Shown here in pieces: positions 3,922 to 64,000 of a stretch of 64,000 nucleotides of DNA (within the stretch, counting starts at the first letter, position 1; every line of letters starts with the position of its first letter). The notes under the pieces are model-generated. The model searched no databases. It had not been told where the DNA came from and was given only the letters and a program-made list of their open reading frames with translations. Source of the stretch: Treponema sp. (GTDB lineage Bacteria > Spirochaetota > Spirochaetia > Treponematales > Treponemataceae); NCBI GenBank assembly GCA_016281495.1, contig JAEEIU010000018.1, forward strand, positions 1 to 64,000. The letters are read 5' to 3'. Made by a program: the position numbers and the translations under genes.

Positions 3922-6900
3922 ATGAAGCGTTCATCTAAGAAATACAGGAATCCGGAAAAGAAAGCCCGCAAAGACCGCTCCAAGAAAATGCTTGCCACTG
4001 GAATGATGATCTGTCTGGGTAGTCTTCCGGTCTGGTGTGATGACGAGGTCCTTCTTACCATTTTCCCTTCTGCCTCTAAATCTGTTGGTTCTTATGCTGA
4101 TGTTCAATATGATTTTGGTGTGGGTGGAAAGCTCACATGGCGTAGGAACGGAAACCTGGACTTGTTTGTTGAAGGTGATTATAAAAGCCTTGCGCTTCCG
4201 AATGTCTCTTCTGCCACATTGCTGAATGGAGGTGTGGGGGCAGGATACCATCTTCCCATAAATGACCGCTGGGGCGTGAACATGAGCGCTCAGGTGGGTG
4301 GATACCGTGCCTCAAAATCAGACGGTGTATTGACTGGCCTTTCCGGTGGAATCAACATTTCCATGACATATAGAATCAATCCGACAGTATCTGTGGAAAC
4401 GGGTGCCGTTGCAAACCATTATGTCGCCAAGCCGGAACCTCTTTTGACTGATGTTGGTGCCTCCGCAGGCCTTACGATTAACCTTACCAAGGCATTGTCA
4501 GACGCAACTAACGTCAAGATGGAGACAAAGGAAATCCTTCCTGTGTTCCCGGTTCTCTACTCATGGTACAAGAACAATTCTTTTGCCAGCGTGGGAATCA
4601 CAAACGAGGAAGACGCGGACATCGAGAATGTTCACATAAGCTTCTATCAGCCGCAGTACATGAGCCAGCCCAATCTGTGTGCAACAAAGGAAAAGCTTGG
4701 CAAGGGAGAATCCTTTGACGCAGAGCTTACCGCCTTCTTTAACGAGCGCATGCTTGACCTTACGGAAAAGACCAACACAGAGGCTTCCGTAATAATTGAA
4801 TATTCATATCTTGGTCAAAAGAAAAAGAAGACCATATCAATGGTGGTTCCGGTATACGGACGCAATTCAATGAGCTGGGACGATGACCGCCGTGCATCTG
4901 TATTCGTATCTTCCAAGGACCCTGCTGCACTTTTGTTCTCCAAGTACATTTCTTCTGTAGTACGTGACAACATACGCATGGGTATCGCGCCGAACATTCA
5001 GTATGCAATGGGAATTTTTGATACCCTTGATCAGTTCGGAATCAACTATGTCATTGACCCGTCTTCCGCTTACTCTGACAATGTAGGTTCTTCTTCAATC
5101 GACTTCCTGCAGTTCCCGTATCAGACTTTGACATATCGTGGCGGTGACTGTGATGACCTTTCAATTTTGACATGTTCGCTTTTTGAGGCTGTTGGTATAA
5201 AGACTGCATTCATCACGATTCCGGGGCATATCTTTATGGCGTTTGACTCCGGCTTGACTATGGCGGAAGCTGCCCAGTCATTGATGAACGCAAACAATCT
5301 GATTGACCGCGACGGCGAGGCATGGGTACCGCTGGAAATCACATTGACCAACGAGGGATTCAGCCGTGCATGGAGGACAGGTGCAAGGGAATGGAATCAG
5401 GCATTCAAGGATGGAACAGCTGCCTTCTATGCAATGGAAGACTCCTGGAAAATCTATGACCCTGTAAGTGTCCCTGGTGCAAGCGCTTCATTCACTCTGC
5501 CGGAGAAAGAGGTTGTCGCAAGGCTTTTCCAGCACAGCATGGACCAGTGGGTTGCCCGGGAGATTTCTCCTGTTGTTGCCAAGTACAATGCCATTCTTGC
5601 TTCTCATGATTCTGTGGAGGTCAGAAACGAACTTGGTGTTCTTTACGGACGCTACGGTCTTTTTGTTGAGGCTGATGATCAGTTCAAGAGGGCAAGACGA
5701 AAGGGGTATAAGCCTGCGCTTTTGAATACTGCCAACGTTTATTTTGCACGCAAGCAGTACGAGATAGCCCTGGAATGGTACAGGAAGGTTCTGGAGACGG
5801 ACAAAAACAATGACCTTGCCATGCTTGGTATAGCACGCTGCCAATATGAGCTTGAAAATTATGATGAATGTGATGCCGCGTTTGACATTGTGCGAAACAG
5901 GAATCCTGCTCTTGCTGCTGAATATACATATCTTGGAGCATTTGAAGAGACTGTAGGCCGAAGCTTCTCTCTTGCAGATCGCATTTCCATGACAAAATGG
6001 GATACCGGAAAAACTTCTACCGGCATATTGAATACGGGTGATGATTCTGAGTCTGAAGATGGATATGTCGGCGAGGACTCAAACGGATTTGTCATTGCGG
6101 ACACAGACACTTCTGATTCCAATACCGTAGTTATCGGTAATGCAGATTCTCTTCTTTCTCAGCTTGCGGGTATGAGTGATCCAAACGGGATGCTCAGGCC
6201 TGATGCCATTATACCGGATGACAAAAAGAAGAAAGAGGTTCTTGAAGATCCTTATGCGGAAATGGATGACTACGCAAATCTTGTGGAAGAACTGCCGGGC
6301 CTTATTGCACAGCTAAGGGTTCCGGAAACAAAACTTGACGGCACAAAACCTGTCATGGTAAGTGAGACAAGAATTGCAAGCGTTAACCCGACACCTGTGG
6401 ACAACGGCATTGAAGAAGTCCGCACGACACCAGAAAAGCCGACAGAGCCAAAGAAAGACCTGTCATCCCTTATAACAAAATCCACGCTTGAGTCACGTCC
6501 AAGCACCGAGCCGACAGTAGAGGCCACACTGGTCACCGTAACACCGACAGTCGCAGTTACACAGCCAACAGTACAGGAAACACCAGTCACAGTTGCAACA
6601 ACAGCACCCGTGACACAGCCAACGGTCGAGACAACACCGGTCACCGTCACACCAACAGTAGCGGTAACACAGCCGACCGTAGAGGCCACACCGGTTACCG
6701 TTGCAACAACAGCCCCAGTTACACAGCCGACAGTCGAGGCAACACCAGTAACCGTTGCAACAACCGCACCAGTTACACAGCCGACAGTCGAGGCAACACT
6801 AGTAACCGTAACACCGACCGTAGCGGTTACCCAGCCTACAGTACAGGCAACACCAGTAACCGTCACACCAACAGTCGCCGTGACACAGCCAACCGTAGAG

Positions 6901-8901
6901 GCCAAACCGGTCACCGTTGCAACAACCGCACCCGTGACACAGCCCACAGTAGAGGCAACACCAGTAACGGTCACACCGACAGTCGCCGTAACACAGCCGA
7001 CCGTCGAGGCAACACCAGTAACCGTAACACCGACAGTCGCAGTATCACAGCCAACAGTGCAGGAAACACCAGTCACCGTAACACCGACAGTCGCCGTAAC
7101 ACAGCCGACCATAGAGACAACACCGGTTACCGTTGCAACAACAACACCCGTGACACAGCCGACAGTTCAGGCCACGCCAGTTACCGTTGCAACAACAGCC
7201 CCAGTAACACAGCCCACAGTCGAGGCCACACCGGTCACCATTGCAACAACAACACCAGTGACACAGCCGACCGTAGAGGCCACACCAGTTACCGTAACAC
7301 CGACAGTAGCAGTTACACAGCCAACAGTAAATACAACCCCAGTCACAGTTGCAACAACAGCCCCAGTGGCACAGCCGACCGTAGAGGCAACACCGGTCAC
7401 CGTTGCAACAACAGCACCCGTGACACAGCCAACGGTCGAGGCAACACCAGTCACCGTCACACCGACAGTCGCCGTGACACAGCCGACAGTACAGGCAACA
7501 CCAGTCACAGTTGCAACAACGGCTCCAGTAACACAGCCAACGGTAGAGGCAACACCTGTCACCGTTGCAACAACAACACCAGTGACACAGCCGACCGTAG
7601 AGGCCACACCGGTCACAGTTGCAACAACAGCCCCAGTTACACAGCCTACAGTACAGGCAACACCGGTAACGGTCACACCAACAGTCGCCGTAACACAGCC
7701 AACGGTAGAGGCAACCCCAGTCACAGTTGCAACCACAGCCCCAGTGACACAGCCGACCGTAGAGGCCACACCAGTAACCGTAACACCAACAGTCGCGGTA
7801 ACACAGCCGACCACGCCTCAGTTTACGACGCAGGAAATCGTTATCAGGGACACAGACACCGTGCTTGCTGAACTTGGAATAGACAAAGACGACCTGATGG
7901 ATGAATATGAGATGGACGAGGACGAGGCCTTCTTTGCCTCACTTTTGGACGAAACGGATGATGAATTTGATGACAGCCCTGTAGGTGCACTTCTTGCCGA
8001 GGAAAAGGCAACAGAAAAGCCTGTGGTCATTGGACCCGTCTTTAAAAACGTGCAGGAGGATTCAACTCCAAAGACAGAGACAGTTCAGCCGGAAGAAACC
8101 ATTCAACCGGGCGAAAAAATGGCATATACAGAGGTTCTCCCCACAGTGGAAAGGGCCGCTCCAAGATATACGGCGACTGCATCTTCAAAATGGGCACCAG
8201 AGGAAGTTTACACCGCAAAAATCATTCCCGGCATGAAAACCTACGAGGAAGAGATGAGTACCTACTCCGAGGATAAAAGCTACCTTTACGAGGACAACAA
8301 CGGCCTGCTTTCTGAGGACACCGCGGAGGCCATTGCACTGGAAAAGGCACAGGCGCTTTTGGATGAAGAAGAACGTAAAAAAAATGAATACGCAATAGAA
8401 AATTGGGAGAAATTGGCATATAATAATACAGTAGACGGTACTGATCCTCTGTTCTCCTATCTTGCGGATAATGTCCTGGAAGAGATTCAAAATACAAGCA
8501 TTGTGGACAAAATCCGTGAGCAGGGTAATATGTCTCCGGCAGAAAAGCTCGCCAAGGAAAGACAGTCAAGCCTTCTTGCCAAGATGGAGGAAGTGCTTGA
8601 AAACGACAGGAAGTCCAAGGCAAGCCCAGTTGAAGACACGGATGTTGAAGAAGAAAACGAAACCATTGCCCAACTTACTGAAGAAGAAAACCCGGATGCC
8701 ACGGGCGGCATAATTCAGGCAAGTGATGTGAATAATGAAGATGAAAAAAAGAAGGGTCCTGGAAAATGGCCATATGTTGCCGGTGGAGCAGGACTGTTAG
8801 GATTATTTGTTATCTTCCTGATTGTATTCTGGAAGAAAAAAGATGATGACGAAGATGATGATAAAAAGGACTCGCTGGAGAAGCAGGGGGTAAATGTATG
8901 A
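3922..8901 (+). CDS. large envelope protein: beta-barrel-like region, transglutaminase-like domain, TPR, Thr/Pro/Val repeat region, C-terminal TM anchor
   Basis: GGDCDD...PGHIFMAFD (Cys/His/Asp), TPR repeats, 24 x 18-aa repeats, C-terminal YVAGGAGLLGLFVIFLIVFWKKK. Confidence 0.75.
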   Translation: MKRSSKKYRNPEKKARKDRSKKMLATGMMICLGSLPVWCDDEVLLTIFPSASKSVGSYADVQYDFGVGGKLTWRRNGNLDLFVEGDYKSLALPNVSSATLLNGGVGAGYHLPINDRWGVNMSAQVGGYRASKSDGVLTGLSGGINISMTYRINPTVSVETGAVANHYVAKPEPLLTDVGASAGLTINLTKALSDATNVKMETKEILPVFPVLYSWYKNNSFASVGITNEEDADIENVHISFYQPQYMSQPNLCATKEKLGKGESFDAELTAFFNERMLDLTEKTNTEASVIIEYSYLGQKKKKTISMVVPVYGRNSMSWDDDRRASVFVSSKDPAALLFSKYISSVVRDNIRMGIAPNIQYAMGIFDTLDQFGINYVIDPSSAYSDNVGSSSIDFLQFPYQTLTYRGGDCDDLSILTCSLFEAVGIKTAFITIPGHIFMAFDSGLTMAEAAQSLMNANNLIDRDGEAWVPLEITLTNEGFSRAWRTGAREWNQAFKDGTAAFYAMEDSWKIYDPVSVPGASASFTLPEKEVVARLFQHSMDQWVAREISPVVAKYNAILASHDSVEVRNELGVLYGRYGLFVEADDQFKRARRKGYKPALLNTANVYFARKQYEIALEWYRKVLETDKNNDLAMLGIARCQYELENYDECDAAFDIVRNRNPALAAEYTYLGAFEETVGRSFSLADRISMTKWDTGKTSTGILNTGDDSESEDGYVGEDSNGFVIADTDTSDSNTVVIGNADSLLSQLAGMSDPNGMLRPDAIIPDDKKKKEVLEDPYAEMDDYANLVEELPGLIAQLRVPETKLDGTKPVMVSETRIASVNPTPVDNGIEEVRTTPEKPTEPKKDLSSLITKSTLESRPSTEPTVEATLVTVTPTVAVTQPTVQETPVTVATTAPVTQPTVETTPVTVTPTVAVTQPTVEATPVTVATTAPVTQPTVEATPVTVATTAPVTQPTVEATLVTVTPTVAVTQPTVQATPVTVTPTVAVTQPTVEAKPVTVATTAPVTQPTVEATPVTVTPTVAVTQPTVEATPVTVTPTVAVSQPTVQETPVTVTPTVAVTQPTIETTPVTVATTTPVTQPTVQATPVTVATTAPVTQPTVEATPVTIATTTPVTQPTVEATPVTVTPTVAVTQPTVNTTPVTVATTAPVAQPTVEATPVTVATTAPVTQPTVEATPVTVTPTVAVTQPTVQATPVTVATTAPVTQPTVEATPVTVATTTPVTQPTVEATPVTVATTAPVTQPTVQATPVTVTPTVAVTQPTVEATPVTVATTAPVTQPTVEATPVTVTPTVAVTQPTTPQFTTQEIVIRDTDTVLAELGIDKDDLMDEYEMDEDEAFFASLLDETDDEFDDSPVGALLAEEKATEKPVVIGPVFKNVQEDSTPKTETVQPEETIQPGEKMAYTEVLPTVERAAPRYTATASSKWAPEEVYTAKIIPGMKTYEEEMSTYSEDKSYLYEDNNGLLSEDTAEAIALEKAQALLDEEERKKNEYAIENWEKLAYNNTVDGTDPLFSYLADNVLEEIQNTSIVDKIREQGNMSPAEKLAKERQSSLLAKMEEVLENDRKSKASPVEDTDVEEENETIAQLTEEENPDATGGIIQASDVNNEDEKKKGPGKWPYVAGGAGLLGLFVIFLIVFWKKKDDDEDDDKKDSLEKQGVNV
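6517..7812 (+). repeat. in-frame 54-bp tandem repeat, 24 copies, two alternating modules
   Basis: 18-aa unit V(E/Q)ATPVTV-ATTAPVTQPT or V(E/Q)ATPVTV-TPTVAVTQPT; 24 x 54 = 1296 bp, counted directly from the translation. Confidence 0.95.
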
Positions 8902-45769: not shown

Positions 45770-45900
45770 GTCATGCTGAACTTGATTCAGCATCTTAACA
45801 TGCAATAGTAGGATTCCGAATCGAGTTCGGAATGACGGTATCAAGTTCGGAATGACGGTATCGAGTTCGGAATGACGGTGTCAAGTTAGGAATGACGAAT
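45770..45900. repeat. REP-like element plus four tandem 20-bp units
   Basis: TCATGCTGAACTTGATTCAGCATCTT...GGATTCCGAA then 4 x TC(A/G)AGTTCGGAATGACGGTA. Confidence 0.8.
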
Positions 45901-57080: not shown

Positions 57081-57200
57081 ATAAAAATGTGTAAAAACAG
57101 GGGTAAAAATGCTATAAAAATGTGTAAAAATAGGCTAAAAAATCAATAAAAATGTGTAAAAATGGTTCTAAAACCCTTTATTTTTGTGTAAAAATCACAT
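57081..57200. promoter_or_regulatory. four direct TGTGTAAAAA repeats at 32-33 bp period upstream of DUF4143 ATPase
   Basis: TGTGTAAAAA at 57088, 57121, 57153, 57185. Confidence 0.75.
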
Positions 57201-57211
57201 AAAATATAAGC

Positions 57212-58510
57212 ATGTACAGAAAGGCGCTGATGAAACTGGCACAATGGAAATCCTCCTCCCATAGAAAACCTCTTGTTTTGCGTGGGGCACGTCAGGTTGG
57301 AAAAACCTGGCTTATGAAAGAATTTGGCCGATTAAATTACGAAAAGACTTTTTATTTCTCGTTTGAAAATGACAGCGAACTTGCAAAAATATTTGCAACA
57401 AATAAAGACCCCTATAGAATAATTTCGCTTTTGGGAACAATTAAAAATTCAAAAATCGAAAAAGAAAAACATCTGATTATTTTTGATGAAATTCAGGAAT
57501 GCCCAAATGCACTTAATTCGTTAAAATACTTTTGTGAAGATGCCAATGATTATCATGTAATAGCCGCAGGAAGTCTTCTTGGAACTTTTCTTTCAAGACC
57601 TATGAGCTATCCGGTTGGAAAAGTGAATCTGCTGAATGTTTATCCTATGGATTTTGAAGAATTCTTGGGAGCTGTTAATCAGCCACTTTTAAAATATTTG
57701 GAAGAAACTCCACCGGAAGAAATAATTTCCCTGCAGCATACGAAGCTTATTGAACAGTATCATGACTATCTGATAGTTGGCGGGCTTCCTGAATGTGTTT
57801 CAAGCTGGGCGGAAGAAAAAAATTCTGGGACAGTTATGCAGATTCAAAAAGAATTGTTGGCTTTGTATGAGAACGATATAACAAAGCATAACGGAAAAAT
57901 TGATGCAGGCAGAATTCTGCTGGTTTTCAGAAGTATTGTAACACAGCTTGCTAAAGAAAACGAAAAGTTTATTTACGGTTGTGTAAAGCAAGGTGCGCGT
58001 GCCCGCGAATTTGAAGTGGCTATAGAATGGCTTGTAAGTGCGAGTCTTGTACTTCGTGTTTATGATGTAAAAAAGCCTGAGCATCCGATAAAAGTTTTTG
58101 AGGATTTTTCAAGTTTTAAACTCTTCTTTTTTGATGTCGGATTGGCAAAATGTGCTGCTGAAGTTCAAAATAAACAGATTGTACTGGATTCTGATTTTCA
58201 GTTCAAAGGTGCGCTTACGGAAAACTATGTTCTGCAGCAGTTTCATGCGAATCTTGAAAATGATGTACATTATTATTCTCCTGCTCAGAATTACGAGGTA
58301 GATTTTCTTTTGCAAAACGAAATGCAGATAATACCTGTTGAATGTAAAGCCGGTGGAAACGTAACTTCCGCGAGCTTTAAGCGTTATCGCAGGGAGCAAA
58401 AGCCAGAGCTGGCAATAAGGTTTTCCCAGCTCCAATACAAAGAACAGGACGACATGATAAATGTTCCGCTGTACCTGGCAGACAAAATAAACGAAATTGT
58501 TTCAAAGTAA
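57212..58510 (+). CDS. AAA ATPase with DUF4143
   Basis: KPLVLRGARQVGKTWLMKEFGRLNYEKTFYFSFENDSEL; IFDEIQECPNALNSLKYFCEDANDYHVIAAGSLLG; C-terminal VDFLLQNEMQIIPVECKAG. Confidence 0.9.
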   Translation: MYRKALMKLAQWKSSSHRKPLVLRGARQVGKTWLMKEFGRLNYEKTFYFSFENDSELAKIFATNKDPYRIISLLGTIKNSKIEKEKHLIIFDEIQECPNALNSLKYFCEDANDYHVIAAGSLLGTFLSRPMSYPVGKVNLLNVYPMDFEEFLGAVNQPLLKYLEETPPEEIISLQHTKLIEQYHDYLIVGGLPECVSSWAEEKNSGTVMQIQKELLALYENDITKHNGKIDAGRILLVFRSIVTQLAKENEKFIYGCVKQGARAREFEVAIEWLVSASLVLRVYDVKKPEHPIKVFEDFSSFKLFFFDVGLAKCAAEVQNKQIVLDSDFQFKGALTENYVLQQFHANLENDVHYYSPAQNYEVDFLLQNEMQIIPVECKAGGNVTSASFKRYRREQKPELAIRFSQLQYKEQDDMINVPLYLADKINEIVSK

Positions 58511-59035
58511 GTTCCCGCTGATTTCGAGGTAGGGGTCGCCGGATTCTTCCAGCCATTGCATGATCTGGTTCTTGACGTTTTCTATCCTGCGGCGGGAGTT
58601 TTTGCCTCGGATGGCACATTCCCAGACAAGGCACACGCGCCAGCATTGGTCCTGGTAGTACTTTATGACCTGTTCGTCACGCTCCCTGTTGCACCTGAAT
58701 TTATTGCTCCAGAACTCCTGGTTGGACGAGGGAAAGCGGAAATAACGACAGCCTTCGTGTGCATACGTCGCATTTGCGCCGTTCGCATGAGAGGAAGCTA
58801 TTGGATGTCGGCTGGAGTCCCAGCCGTGCGCGTGCCAGAAGCAGCCGTTTATGAAGACTACGGCGTAGTAGCGGGGGAAGATTAGGTCGGGTTTCCCGGG
58901 GTAGCGTTTGTCGCAGATGCGGTACCTGAACCCTGCCCTGAACAGAGCGGAGCGGATCTGCTTTTCCGGCCTTGTGTCCTTTGACCGAATGTGAGACATC
59001 GCCTTGTGCCGTGATTCCGGAGATAAAACGTCCAT
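58502..59035 (-). CDS. vsr: very short patch repair endonuclease-like protein
   Basis: SPESRHKAMSHIRSKDTRPEKQIRSALFRAGFRYRICDKRYPGKPDLIFPRYYAVVFINGCFWHAH. Confidence 0.85.
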   Translation of the reverse strand: MDVLSPESRHKAMSHIRSKDTRPEKQIRSALFRAGFRYRICDKRYPGKPDLIFPRYYAVVFINGCFWHAHGWDSSRHPIASSHANGANATYAHEGCRYFRFPSSNQEFWSNKFRCNRERDEQVIKYYQDQCWRVCLVWECAIRGKNSRRRIENVKNQIMQWLEESGDPYLEISGNLL

Positions 59036-59045
59036 GGGGGAGATT

Positions 59046-59450
59046 CTATAACATTTCCGTGATTTTATCCAGAATGAGTTCGTCGGCGGGGAGCCATTTT
59101 ACTGAATGGAGGGTTTCCCGCGTGAGCCAGAGTGCGTTTTCGTGCTCCAGGAGCTCAAGTCTGCCAGATTCAAGGGTGCAGAGGATGCAGTGCATGGTCA
59201 GGTGGAATGCTGGGTAGTCGTAGTCCACGGTGCCGATGATTTTCTGCGCGTGAACCTGGGCCGAAAGCTCTTCCCTGATTTCGCGCTCGATGCACTGTTC
59301 TGGGGTTTCGCCTTCTTCGATTTTACCGCCGGGGAATTCCCACCAGCCCTTCCAGTCGCCGTAGCCGCGTTGGGTTGCAAAGATTTCCCTTTTGCCGCTT
59401 TCCGCATTTGTGCGCAGGATGACCGCCCCGCTGACGGTTATGGTTTTCAT
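59046..59450 (-). CDS. (deoxy)nucleoside triphosphate pyrophosphohydrolase, Nudix
   Basis: WWEFPGGKIEEGETPEQCIEREIREEL Nudix box. Confidence 0.9.
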   Translation of the reverse strand: MKTITVSGAVILRTNAESGKREIFATQRGYGDWKGWWEFPGGKIEEGETPEQCIEREIREELSAQVHAQKIIGTVDYDYPAFHLTMHCILCTLESGRLELLEHENALWLTRETLHSVKWLPADELILDKITEML

Positions 59451-59519
59451 CGTTGTCCTCCATCCGTACCAAGCATATCAGTTCTTGTGGTAAAGTCAAG
59501 ATAGAATGTGATTTGACGT

Positions 59520-59553
59520 TGTTGCTTAAGCAACATGCGAAGCCGCGTGACAA
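59520..59553 (-). repeat. single end of TTGTCACGCGG element with hairpin
   Basis: Reverse strand TTGTCACGCGGCTTCGcatGTTGCTTAAGCAAC. Confidence 0.55.
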
Positions 59554-59626
59554 CAATCTTTTTTCAATTACTATCCAGCAAGACACAAAGCCAATCAGTA
59601 AGACAATCTCAATTCTTAATTCTTAA

Positions 59627-59880
59627 TTATGCATTCTTAATTGTTAATTGTTCCGCCAGTTCCTTTACTTTTTCCAGTGACAAACCGACACCCTGTGCAA
59701 TCTGTTCGTGGGTCAGAACATTCATGGACAGAAATTTTCTGGCATTTTCCAACGCATTTCGTTGGATGCCCTGTTCAATTCCTTCCTGTCTTGCCCGTTC
59801 CATTATGTCCCTGTCGTGTAAATTCATAGCTAAGTAATCACTCCTGAATTTCTTATTCGCTTTGAGCTTCTCAACTTCTT
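59627..59880 (-). pseudogene. Rpn family C-terminal remnant
   Basis: In-frame KEVEKLKANKKFRSDYLAMNLHDRDIMERARQEGIEQGIQRNALENARKFLSMNVLTHEQIAQ, lacks nuclease core. Confidence 0.75.
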
Positions 59881-60414
59881 TCTTTTATCTTAATCCTATC
59901 AGCAATTTCCTGCACTTTTTCCAAAGGAAGTCCGATTGCCTGAGAAATCTGCTCAATAGTGTTAACACCCATTCGTAAGAAGTTTTCGGCGGTTTCTATG
60001 GCTTTTTGGGAGGCACCTTGGGCAAGACCGGCAGTAAGGCCTTCTTCGTACGCATCTTCTTTTTCATCATCTATCGTCTGTTGCCAAGTCATGTACTGCT
60101 TCCTCCATTTCATGTTTTTCTTGGCGAAACTAACCTTCTCCTCAATGGATTTGGTCAGCTCGCTCTGGACGCAATGTTCCTTCAGGTACTTGAAGAAGTT
60201 CTTTGCCTCTTCTCCTTTCATATTAGCATATTCCGACGCATTGAAAAAGACCTTTTTCTAATTAAGAATTAAGAATTAAGAATTATGAATTATGAATTAT
60301 GAATTATGAATTATGAATTGGAAGTTCCGGCTCGCTTTCCATTATCTTACAGAAGAGGAAATTGTTGGCAAAGGTCAATTCCTCCCACGACGGTGACTTT
60401 TTCTTTTTGGGCAT
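59871..60414 (-). pseudogene. Rpn family gene with core replaced by 7-bp repeat array
   Basis: N-term at 60414 (MPKKKKSPSWEELTFANNFLFCKIMESEPELPIHNS*) and C-term ORF 59871..60221; middle missing. Confidence 0.7.
60259..60320. repeat. 7-bp tandem repeat (GAATTAA)n(GAATTAT)n
   Basis: Direct reading: attaagaattaagaattaagaattatgaattatgaattatgaattatgaattatgaattgg. Confidence 0.9.
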
Positions 60415-60784
60415 AGGTGCCTCCTGTGTAATGATATTGAGGAATCTATAAATTCCACTAATATATATATGGTGCAGGACTTAACGTTTTTAACAAAAAA
60501 TCGGGGATAATTTTTAAAAAAATTTAAGAAAACGTGAAAATCGGTAAAGTCGTTTTTGGGGAATTTGTTTTGCCAGATGCTGTTGTCCACAAAGACATTT
60601 GAAATAACACACACCACACCACTTTCCCTGTGGAAAAACAGCAAAACCGCTTACACCGCACAAATGTATGCTTGCTACGAACCCCGCCTCTATTACAGCC
60701 TTTTCTCGGTTAACATTGAATTATCCATTTAATGTAAATGGCACTTGCCTTCCAATATCCAGTTCATACACATAAAAAGGAGAA

Positions 60785-60870
60785 AAAACATACGATGTTT
60801 TAAAAAATTCGTACGGAGAATTTCAAAAAACATACGGAGTTTTTACCTAAAACGTACGGAGAATTTTTGG
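60785..60870. promoter_or_regulatory. four phased TACGGAG-type direct repeats upstream of UPF0175 gene
   Basis: TACG(G/A)(A/T)G cores at 60791, 60812, 60833, 60855 (spacings 21, 21, 22). Confidence 0.75.
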
Positions 60871-60939
60871 GGTAGGGGGGAGATTTTGTATGGCCAAGGT
60901 TTTGTGGTATAATAGGGAAAATTAAGGAGGCTGGAACAA

Positions 60940-61173
60940 ATGGCTGAAACGGGCTTAATTGATTCTTATATGGAAAATCTGCCGGAAAATGATGATGACC
61001 TCAAAAAGATGGCTGTTGAGCAATTTACCAGTCATCATGTTTCTATCGGGAAATGTGCCCAGATGGTCGGGACGACAGAAGAAGATTTTATAAAGTATCT
61101 GGGACAGAAAGGAATCTCTGTTTTCCATTATGACAGCAGGGAAGAATTTGAGGTAGAGCTTGAGAATGCGTAG
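60940..61173 (+). CDS. UPF0175 family protein (antitoxin-like HTH)
   Basis: FTSHHVSIGKCAQMVGTTEEDFIKYLGQKGISVFHYDSREEFEVELE. Confidence 0.7.
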   Translation: MAETGLIDSYMENLPENDDDLKKMAVEQFTSHHVSIGKCAQMVGTTEEDFIKYLGQKGISVFHYDSREEFEVELENA

Positions 61174-61357
61174 GGGGGGGCAAACATAATTTTTCAAATT
61201 GCTTTTCCTTATAAAATATAATATAATAAAACTTGTAAAGCGTATCTGTGGAAGATATGTTAAGCTCATATCCCTCTGGAACGATTTTATATAAGATTGT
61301 ATATTTGTATATAGAATATTATATTTGATTATTACTATATTAGGTATAGAGGTAACA

Positions 61358-62230
61358 ATGAATTATTCACCTTTACGGTATCCTGGAGGGAAATCTAAAC
61401 TTTATAATTTTGTAGAGTCGATTATCTCTGCTGGAAATAATACTATCTATACATATGTTGAACCATTTGCAGGTGGAGCAAGTATAGCTCTGTCATTGTT
61501 GCTAAATAGAAAAGTTGAGAATATAATTATTAATGATTTGAATAAAGGAATATATTCTTTTTGGAAATCAATTTGTACAGATACTGATGGCTTTTTGGAA
61601 TTGCTCAATAAAACCCCTGTTGATCTAAAGAATTATTATAATCAAAAAAAAATATATCAAACCTCAAAAAAGTATTCATTGGAATATGGTTTTTCAACAT
61701 TTTTTCTAAATCGCACTAATTATTCTGGAATCTTAGATAGTGGCCCCATTGGAGGACTGTTGCAAAATGGGAATTACAAAATAAATGCCCGGTATAATAA
61801 AGAATTATTAGTTGATAAAATACTAAAGATTGCAAAATATAAAAAAAATATTAAAATATATAATAAAGATATTCTAAAGTTTAATACTCAGATTGTACAA
61901 TCATTATCAAATGCATTTATTTACTATGACCCTCCATATTACGTAAAAGGAAAAAAATTATATACAAATTTTTTGACTCATAATGATCATATTAATATCC
62001 ATAATTCAATAAAATCTGTACAACAACCTTGGATATTAACATATGACAATGCTAACGAAATTGCAGATATATATAATGATTTTAAAGCGTTTGAGTTCAA
62101 TTTATATTATTCTGTAAATTCAAGAAATGCTCGTAGGGCTGTCGAATTGATGTATATGAGTAATTCAAATTTCATTAATAATATTCCAACTGAAATTTTA
62201 AATACAATAAATCTTAAAGAGAGGCAGTAA
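61358..62230 (+). CDS. DNA adenine methylase (D12 class N6-adenine MTase)
   Basis: SPLRYPGGKSKLYNFV ... YVEPFAGGASIALSLL ... FIYYDPPYYVKGK. Confidence 0.9.
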   Translation: MNYSPLRYPGGKSKLYNFVESIISAGNNTIYTYVEPFAGGASIALSLLLNRKVENIIINDLNKGIYSFWKSICTDTDGFLELLNKTPVDLKNYYNQKKIYQTSKKYSLEYGFSTFFLNRTNYSGILDSGPIGGLLQNGNYKINARYNKELLVDKILKIAKYKKNIKIYNKDILKFNTQIVQSLSNAFIYYDPPYYVKGKKLYTNFLTHNDHINIHNSIKSVQQPWILTYDNANEIADIYNDFKAFEFNLYYSVNSRNARRAVELMYMSNSNFINNIPTEILNTINLKERQ

Positions 62231-62231
62231 T

Positions 62232-64000
62232 ATGAACATTGTAAATCAAGTAACAAATGAGGATTCATTAATCAAACTCGTACAAAAAGGAAATGAGGTT
62301 GGAAAGATATACTCTATTGACTATGAAAACGCTCTTGTATTAACAAATGATAGGTGGAGAAGAAATGTTAATGGTGTTCCTCAAAATTCTTTTTTGATAG
62401 CCACAAATATTTATCCAGAAGATTATGCAAATCAAGATGAATTTGATAAGGAAGTAATTTTACTTAGGGTTATTGGTTCTTATAAATTACCACAAGATGA
62501 TGACAACATTAGAACTAAATTGGATTCAATTCAAGATTCAAGATCGTTTTATGATATTGAAGAATTTGATAAATTGACAAGAAATGTACTTCAATTTAGT
62601 GGTTTGCAATGTCGTGTTCTAGGAACTTTTTATATGAAAAACCAAGAATTACAACTTGGTTCTGATATTGAGAATTTTTCTGCTTCAATGACACAAAGAG
62701 TTTATTTACCTAAAGGAGATTCGTTAAAGACAATAGTAAATTATGTTGATCCGATTCGAAAGAATAAATCAAAAGAAGATTTCAAGGCTCTGGGAATAAA
62801 AGAGAATGTTGAACCATTTAAAATCGGAACTGTACGCTACACATCTTCAGATAGGTTACAAAGAAGTGCTGATGAAATAAAAGTTCCTGTTGAGATACAA
62901 CCTTCAGATTTCTTAGCGAGAAGAACTGCAGTTCTTGGAATGACAAGAACTGGTAAATCCAATATGGTCAAACAAACAGTTTCTGTTGTAAAAGATATTT
63001 CCAATAAATCAAAGCTCCCAATTGGACAATTGATATTTGATATAAATGGAGAATATGCAAATGCAAATGGGCAGGATAAAGGCTCTATTTCTGACATTTT
63101 TAGAGATGATTGTATTAGATATCGTATGATGAAAACAGAAGGGTTCAAATCTTTACTTATAAATTTTTATGAACAATTGGAAGAAGGATTCCAAATTATA
63201 TCTGATAATATCAATGAAGAAAAAATTAGTTCTGCCCAAGATATAAAAACTTTTGCTAACGGAATGTCGTTCGAAAAACCAGAGGCAGGTGATAGGAGTG
63301 GACAAAATCGTTACGATGTCAAAGTTGCAATATATATGTGTCTCTTAAAAATTGCAGGCTTTGAAACACCTGATGATACTAATGTTACTTTTTCTGCTAA
63401 TCCTAAAATTAAATGTATACAGATATATGGAAAGACTATCAAAGATTATGCGGCAGAACAAGGAAAGACTCAAACAGAAATTGAAGAATCCTTAAAAAAA
63501 CTGAAAGAACCAAATACAATAAAAGGAGCATTATATTGGTTTATACAACTTCGGGAGAATGCTCAAGAAATAGTCAACGGATTAAATGCTGATAAGAAGG
63601 AATCTGGAAGTAAAAAGTTATGGTATGAAATTTTGCCATCATCTTCTAAGGATAAATTGTGGCTTGATGATGTTGATGTTTCTATGATGAATATGATTGC
63701 AAAGAAAAATTCATCAGGCGTTCCAATGTTTGGTTATAAGGCTTTAATTACTTCTAAGGATTATCATACGTCAGATAGAAAAACAGATATGAAAAATGAA
63801 ATATACGAATCATTAAAAGAAGGTAAGATTGTTATCTTAGATATGTCTGTAGGAAAGGCTAAATTGAGAGAAAAAATTAGTAAAGATTTAGCTCAGTATA
63901 TTTTTAATACATCTATGAATTTGTTTACCCAAAATATTACTCCTCCAAATATTATGATTTATATTGAGGAGGCTCATAACTTAATTGGTAAAGGCATGGA
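62232..64000 (+). CDS. HerA-like (DUF87) ATPase, 3' truncated by window
   Basis: Frame open to window end (absent from ORF track because incomplete); Walker A VLGMTRTGKSN, Walker B IMIYIEEAHNLIGKG. Confidence 0.85.
   Translation, partial: MNIVNQVTNEDSLIKLVQKGNEVGKIYSIDYENALVLTNDRWRRNVNGVPQNSFLIATNIYPEDYANQDEFDKEVILLRVIGSYKLPQDDDNIRTKLDSIQDSRSFYDIEEFDKLTRNVLQFSGLQCRVLGTFYMKNQELQLGSDIENFSASMTQRVYLPKGDSLKTIVNYVDPIRKNKSKEDFKALGIKENVEPFKIGTVRYTSSDRLQRSADEIKVPVEIQPSDFLARRTAVLGMTRTGKSNMVKQTVSVVKDISNKSKLPIGQLIFDINGEYANANGQDKGSISDIFRDDCIRYRMMKTEGFKSLLINFYEQLEEGFQIISDNINEEKISSAQDIKTFANGMSFEKPEAGDRSGQNRYDVKVAIYMCLLKIAGFETPDDTNVTFSANPKIKCIQIYGKTIKDYAAEQGKTQTEIEESLKKLKEPNTIKGALYWFIQLRENAQEIVNGLNADKKESGSKKLWYEILPSSSKDKLWLDDVDVSMMNMIAKKNSSGVPMFGYKALITSKDYHTSDRKTDMKNEIYESLKEGKIVILDMSVGKAKLREKISKDLAQYIFNTSMNLFTQNITPPNIMIYIEEAHNLIGKGM

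Follow-up and report, generated by a model that had tools for sequence, protein, structure and literature searches.

Phased, gene-specific direct repeats upstream of a PDC-S01 ATPase-nuclease gene of Treponema sp. and its relatives as a candidate autoregulatory operator

Introduction

Why is a single ATPase gene preceded by four evenly phased direct repeats? The question is raised by contig JAEEIU010000018.1 of Treponema sp. (assembly GCA_016281495.1), of which positions 1 to 64,000 of the forward strand (64,000 nucleotides, hereafter the window) were analysed, and in which the repeats lie immediately upstream of a gene for an AAA_14-DUF4143 protein. An initial annotation, made from the sequence alone, had likened them to iterons and suggested self-regulation or a DNA target. 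Arrays of the same kind were found here upstream of relatives in several phyla, and they suggest that each protein binds and controls its own gene, which would be the first concrete handle on how this family works.

According to the accessible part of one survey, PDC-S01, an ATPase fused to a PD-(D/E)XK domain, is a single-gene phage defence candidate of PADLOC and ranks fourth in abundance among the defence-type genes of prokaryotes (~39,000 cases), and validation is pending for most PDCs; that part lists PDC-S01 as an abundant candidate and makes no mention of regulation or DNA targets (PMC12988326). The window protein and 52/52 aligned relatives match the PDC-S01 models, and the private operator-like arrays are the addition made here. 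We know of no target, trigger or control for PDC-S01. No report of such arrays was found in the literature by a search that excluded subscription papers and preprints, and their novelty is provisional. A gene-specific promoter array would put a ligand at hand for assays of binding, activation and structure, and would serve as a built-in reporter of the protein's trigger.

Results

The repeat array at the window locus

A pattern search placed TGTGTAAAAA on the + strand at 57088, 57121, 57153 and 57185, which bears out the positions and the 33-, 32- and 32-bp spacings first described as well as the longer form shared by copies 1-3, ATAAAAATGTGTAAAAA; copy 4 reads TTTATTTTTGTGTAAAAA. The last copy, previously put at 22 bp before the start codon, ends at 57194 and is separated from the ATG at 57212 by a gap of 17 bp. 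Within the window TGTGTAAAAA is restricted to these four sites, and dinucleotide-preserving shuffles gave a mean of 0.31 matches, with four copies in 0/100. When the 3.2-Mb genome was searched with single patterns, one at a time, the 16-mer TAAAAATGTGTAAAAA with ≤1 mismatch was confined to this locus. A regulon elsewhere in the genome was rejected, the window repeat being absent from the rest of it. The putative -35 and -10 hexamers of the window were taken from a first promoter scan, which gave a bonus for TG before the -10 box; an mRNA from this putative -10 box would be almost leaderless.

Conservation among relatives

A genome scan supplied 80 relatives of 42-99% identity. Treponema orthologues (71-99% identity) retain TATAAAAATGTGTAAAA-like copies with diverged linkers, clostridial relatives (55-61% identity) carry TCAGAAAAATGTGT upstream, and TTCGTTGTAAAAAGTGT and AAGTCGTACGAAAAAGTGT are found in a 45%-identity subfamily and in a Bacteroidota member, respectively. 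Phased direct repeats stand at the equivalent position in relatives from Spirochaetota, Bacillota, Bacteroidota, Fusobacteriota and Gammaproteobacteria; judged by sequence, the array of the window is no local oddity. The initial annotation had named two outcomes that would speak against it, lack of conservation in orthologous loci and low-complexity AT expansion. The repeats are kept across phyla, and a simple AT expansion was rejected on the private, G/C-containing half-sites, the fixed TG core and the fixed 32/33-bp pitch.

An exact 11-mer recurring at a lag of 28-36 bp was detected upstream of 46/80 relatives, against 3/203 other open reading frames of the same loci and 1/400 shuffles (relatives versus neighbouring reading frames, Fisher p 2e-27, a test that, like the other conservation tests, ignores shared ancestry). 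One of the three control matches is itself a DUF4143 gene, and the lag is almost always 32 or 33 bp. When the family was taken as 216 unique members, 121 beat all 20 shuffles (~10 expected), 102 of these 121 at a lag of 32 or 33 bp; the 200 bp downstream of the genes gave only 12/108. The arrays are spread over many separate subclades of the family tree and occur also on plasmids of Segatella, Parabacteroides, Fusobacterium and Glaesserella, and viral contigs yielded only 10 relatives. Identity was 0.68 within arrays and 0.30-0.50 between arrays, a difference that is partly circular because arrays were picked by the similarity of their copies.

On the evidence of the pattern searches, the repeat sequence is gene-specific. 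This genome holds nine DUF4143 genes, seven of which have by eye clear repeats of their own. These include TGACTTTAGATTTTTACCA, present five times with a 23-bp period, TTATTCGGTCGAAAAAYG, spaced by 32 bp, and CTCAAAAAGGTGTAAA, spaced by ~33 bp. A 20-bp palindrome together with one direct copy is seen at L005, and no more than a short repeat at L004. Two of these private motifs had genome-wide matches essentially limited to their own promoters. At locus L018 (~4475), a second DUF4143 gene lies just downstream with its own four-copy GGGGATTTTGCA-like array, unlike that of its neighbour.

Repeat geometry and promoter layout in subfamilies

The array-bearing subfamily shares a conserved core, A(5)RTG(T), with a 5′ half that differs between subfamilies. 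The RKPLxLxGARQ group had significant direct repeats in 115/163 genes, 110 of them at 32/33 bp, the GPKWCGK group in 4/5 (23 bp or double) and the FPVIxxTGPRQSGK group in only 5/28; named plasmid members of the type of this last group had no 32/33-bp array. Promoter palindromes, detected by a stem search, beat 12 shuffles in 17/28 genes of the FPVIxxTGPRQSGK group versus 5/97 array genes, with long examples at L005, L134 and L140. The operator geometry thereby seems to switch between subfamilies, direct repeats in some and palindromes in others.

The distance from array to promoter was counted in a scan without any TG bonus; the first scan had favoured a 3-nt distance because of its bonus. The best -10 box starts 2-5 nt past the last core in 32/95 array genes, so that the last copy fills the -35/-10 spacer, and overlap of array and promoter is established for this part of the family.

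The encoded protein

The downstream gene encodes an AAA-DUF4143 ATPase, as first named: Pfam assigned AAA_14 (PF13173, 102.4 bits against a gathering threshold of 27) and DUF4143 (PF13635, 115.9 against 28.1), and the PADLOC PDC-S01 profile matched residues 1-428 of 432 with an E-value of 2e-163. The catalytic residues are intact, Walker A K31 being invariant among the 216 family members, Walker B D92/E93 present in 214/216, and E337, D364, E377 and K379 in 208-213 of 216. A sequence search of the PDB with the protein gave no match. The AlphaFold (AF2) model, with a predicted local distance difference test score (pLDDT) of 90, comprises an ATPase domain, a helical lid, a winged helix (229-306) and a C-terminal domain, the first three in the order of SSO1545 and NLRs that marks STAND-type proteins. 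For residues 1-317 the best structural matches were 2fna and 2qen (Z 14.5 and 15.7), followed by NLRs and CED-4, with plant resistosomes and Avs5 also among the matches; the C-terminal domain modelled alone (pLDDT 82) matched Can2 at Z 9.7 and McrC at Z 9.6. The protein is predicted to combine a STAND-like ATPase and a winged helix with a PD-(D/E)XK nuclease domain resembling Can2 and McrC (Table 1). Protein-DNA covariation was run twice, on gene sets that overlap, and both times ranked R263 and the T after the TG core first; beyond R263 the map is diffuse and was therefore not used as proof.

Table 1. Features of the array and the downstream gene (window coordinates)
Feature	Position	Strand	Basis or remark
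Repeat copy 1 (TAAAAATGTGTAAAAA)	57082..57097	+	Pattern search, shuffles, genome-wide search
Repeat copy 2 (TAAAAATGTGTAAAAA)	57115..57130	+	Pattern search, shuffles, genome-wide search
Repeat copy 3 (TAAAAATGTGTAAAAA)	57147..57162	+	Pattern search, shuffles, genome-wide search
Repeat copy 4, variant (TTTATTTTTGTGTAAAAA)	57177..57194	+	Core 57185-57194 inside putative -35/-10 spacer
Putative -35 (TTTATT), weak match	57177..57182	+	First promoter scan; unreported by stricter scan
Putative -10 (TAAAAT), 17-nt spacer	57200..57205	+	First promoter scan; unreported by stricter scan
AAA_14-DUF4143 gene (PADLOC PDC-S01), 432 aa	57212..58510	+	Pfam, PADLOC
AAA/STAND-like ATPase domain, residues 1-165	57212..57706	+	Model, structure matches, family alignment
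Predicted winged helix, residues 229-306	57896..58129	+	Candidate reader of the repeats; R263 at the N terminus of recognition-type helix 264-276
PD-(D/E)XK-type nuclease domain, residues 332-431	58205..58504	+	E337, D364, E377-x-K379; model, alignment

Discussion

Proposed operator and alternative explanations

Of the two roles first suggested, self-regulation is the best reading and is partly supported. To the following form of it we assign a probability of roughly 0.6: the four repeats serve the ATPase-nuclease gene as its operator, to which the gene's own protein binds cooperatively along one DNA face, repressing the gene's promoter. Molecules of the protein would bind the repeats through the predicted winged helix and hold each other via their STAND/AAA ATPase domains, on one DNA face given the three-helical-turn spacing of the copies. 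Since the promoter-proximal copy lies between the putative -35 and -10 boxes, an occupied array would shut out RNA polymerase and would keep a potentially dangerous ATPase-nuclease scarce until some signal, perhaps nucleotide state, a phage trigger or dilution, released it. With its own recognition sequence for each family member, paralogues in one cell would need no cross-regulation. It would follow that the sequence by itself reveals many recognition specificities and that the winged helix of a STAND protein is able to read DNA bases. In favour of the proposal we count the enrichment of the arrays upstream of relatives and their scarcity downstream, the copies kept while linkers diverge, the private motifs of the paralogues, the -10 box beside the last core in part of the array genes, the predicted winged helix, the top covariation pair and the sharing of gene and array with a 74% relative of differing flanks.

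Several observations weigh against this proposal. The -35 and -10 boxes of the window are weak and were unreported by the strict promoter scan, and many array genes have their best promoter-like pair elsewhere relative to the array. Winged-helix residues 250-259 were modelled at low confidence, and covariation other than the top pair, corrected only in part for shared ancestry, is spread over all domains, the winged helix holding 7 of the top 20 against ~4 expected. In most STAND proteins, moreover, the winged helix serves autoinhibition rather than DNA binding.

The strongest rival, in our judgement still unlikely, also has the gene's own protein on the array, but there the array would mainly be a platform on which a STAND-type oligomer is assembled or loaded, or else a site of activation, rather than a repressor site, and the filament would store or arm the nuclease at its own locus. 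The STAND/NLR-like fold, with CED-4, plant resistosomes and Avs5 among its matches, agrees with this, phasing on one DNA face at 32/33 or 23 bp is apt for ordered polymers, and the upstream copies extend far from the core promoter; repression is better suited by the single copy that fills the -35/-10 spacer in about a third of array genes, and ordinary autoregulation by the palindrome that replaces the array in a related clade. A more far-reaching reading, to which we likewise give an outside chance, makes the arrays the native DNA ligand of what would be a large family of immune ATPase-nucleases. The STAND protein would lie on its private array as a phased filament, with the nuclease held inactive at its own promoter, until invasion broke the resting complex and so freed active enzyme and transcription of its gene alike; a single polypeptide would in that case act as sensor, effector and repressor.

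That the repeats are bound by some other regulator in place of the gene's own product is rather improbable. Self-binding is what we infer here, and winged helices of STAND proteins often do not bind DNA, which leaves room for such a factor; it would, however, have to explain why the same repeat type is found with the gene in five or more phyla and on plasmids with unrelated neighbours, and at least seven private motifs in one genome would require as many private regulators.

There is very little probability, in our estimate, that gene and array form a selfish mobile unit with the repeats as recombination or homing sites. The array and the AAA_14-DUF4143 gene are a low-GC islet between neighbours of 50-55% GC, homology to a 74% relative (genome G012) is limited to them (57107-58492) while the flanks differ, and many homologues lie on plasmids; yet the arrays are one-sided, as a rule with no matching downstream array, and the repeats are tied to promoter boxes. 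The least credible idea is that they are mere phased A-tracts bending DNA or serving RNA polymerase as UP elements, for although the core is an A-tract and the spacing is near a whole number of helical turns, TG follows the A-tract, subfamily-specific G/C-containing half-sites recur in every copy of an array, and some arrays, such as the five TGACTTTAGATTTTTACCA copies, lack A-tract cores.

Relation to known systems

An autoregulatory array of this kind would resemble plasmid iterons with Rep initiators in having several direct repeats beside the gene of the presumed binding protein. It differs in its 32/33-bp pitch, in the lack of a Rep domain in adjacent genes and in lying in the promoter of the gene. 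The initial term iteron therefore holds for the layout only: the repeats have no Rep-type initiator beside them, and nothing pointing to a replication origin was seen; a plasmid iteron origin was rejected, the neighbours being AAA_14-DUF4143 and DUF1846.

The archaeal ATPases SSO1545 and PABY2304 (2fna, 2qen) are ~15% identical to the window protein, and their matches end before the nuclease domain. To our knowledge, no operator has been described for either. MalT and IniR are likewise STAND ATPases that control transcription, and MalT uses several direct-repeat boxes. Both have a separate C-terminal DNA-binding domain, act on other operons and have no nuclease. IniR has a similar N-terminal ATPase (PMC5760070). 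In the accessible parts of the reports on BrxR, CapW and RptR, transcriptional control likewise keeps an anti-phage system quiet, through dedicated repressor proteins that in BrxR and CapW have WYL domains (PMC9122588, PMC9122589, PMC9122601, PMC12255303), whereas here repression would fall to the ATPase-nuclease itself, bound to a direct-repeat array of 3-5 copies. A DUF4143 member of Thermus was up 6.6-fold in the presence of plasmid DNA, an increase confined to the Argonaute-positive strain (PMC4406477).

Neighbouring genes and other repeats

The region 57212-63998 of the window is a defence-type neighbourhood, in which the PDC-S01 gene is followed by a Vsr endonuclease gene (58502-59035, - strand), a PD-Lambda-5_B-like DNA methyltransferase gene (61358-62230) and a gene for a HerA-like ATPase that runs off the window. 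A defence function is a candidate one, resting on the PADLOC label and these neighbours. Both the genome of the window and G012 (contig 180) have a vsr gene close to this DUF4143 gene, in different arrangements. DUF1846 is conserved in the genus, and its upstream neighbour differs in most other genomes.

Three further repeats were noted in the window: ~24 copies of a 54-bp tandem repeat with a 162-bp higher-order unit, possibly coding, at 6509-7811; four copies of the 20-bp tandem repeat ATCAAGTTCGGAATGACGGT at 45820-45897; and a near-perfect 7-bp tandem, AATTATG x8.6, at 60260-60319, which may be a slippage site.
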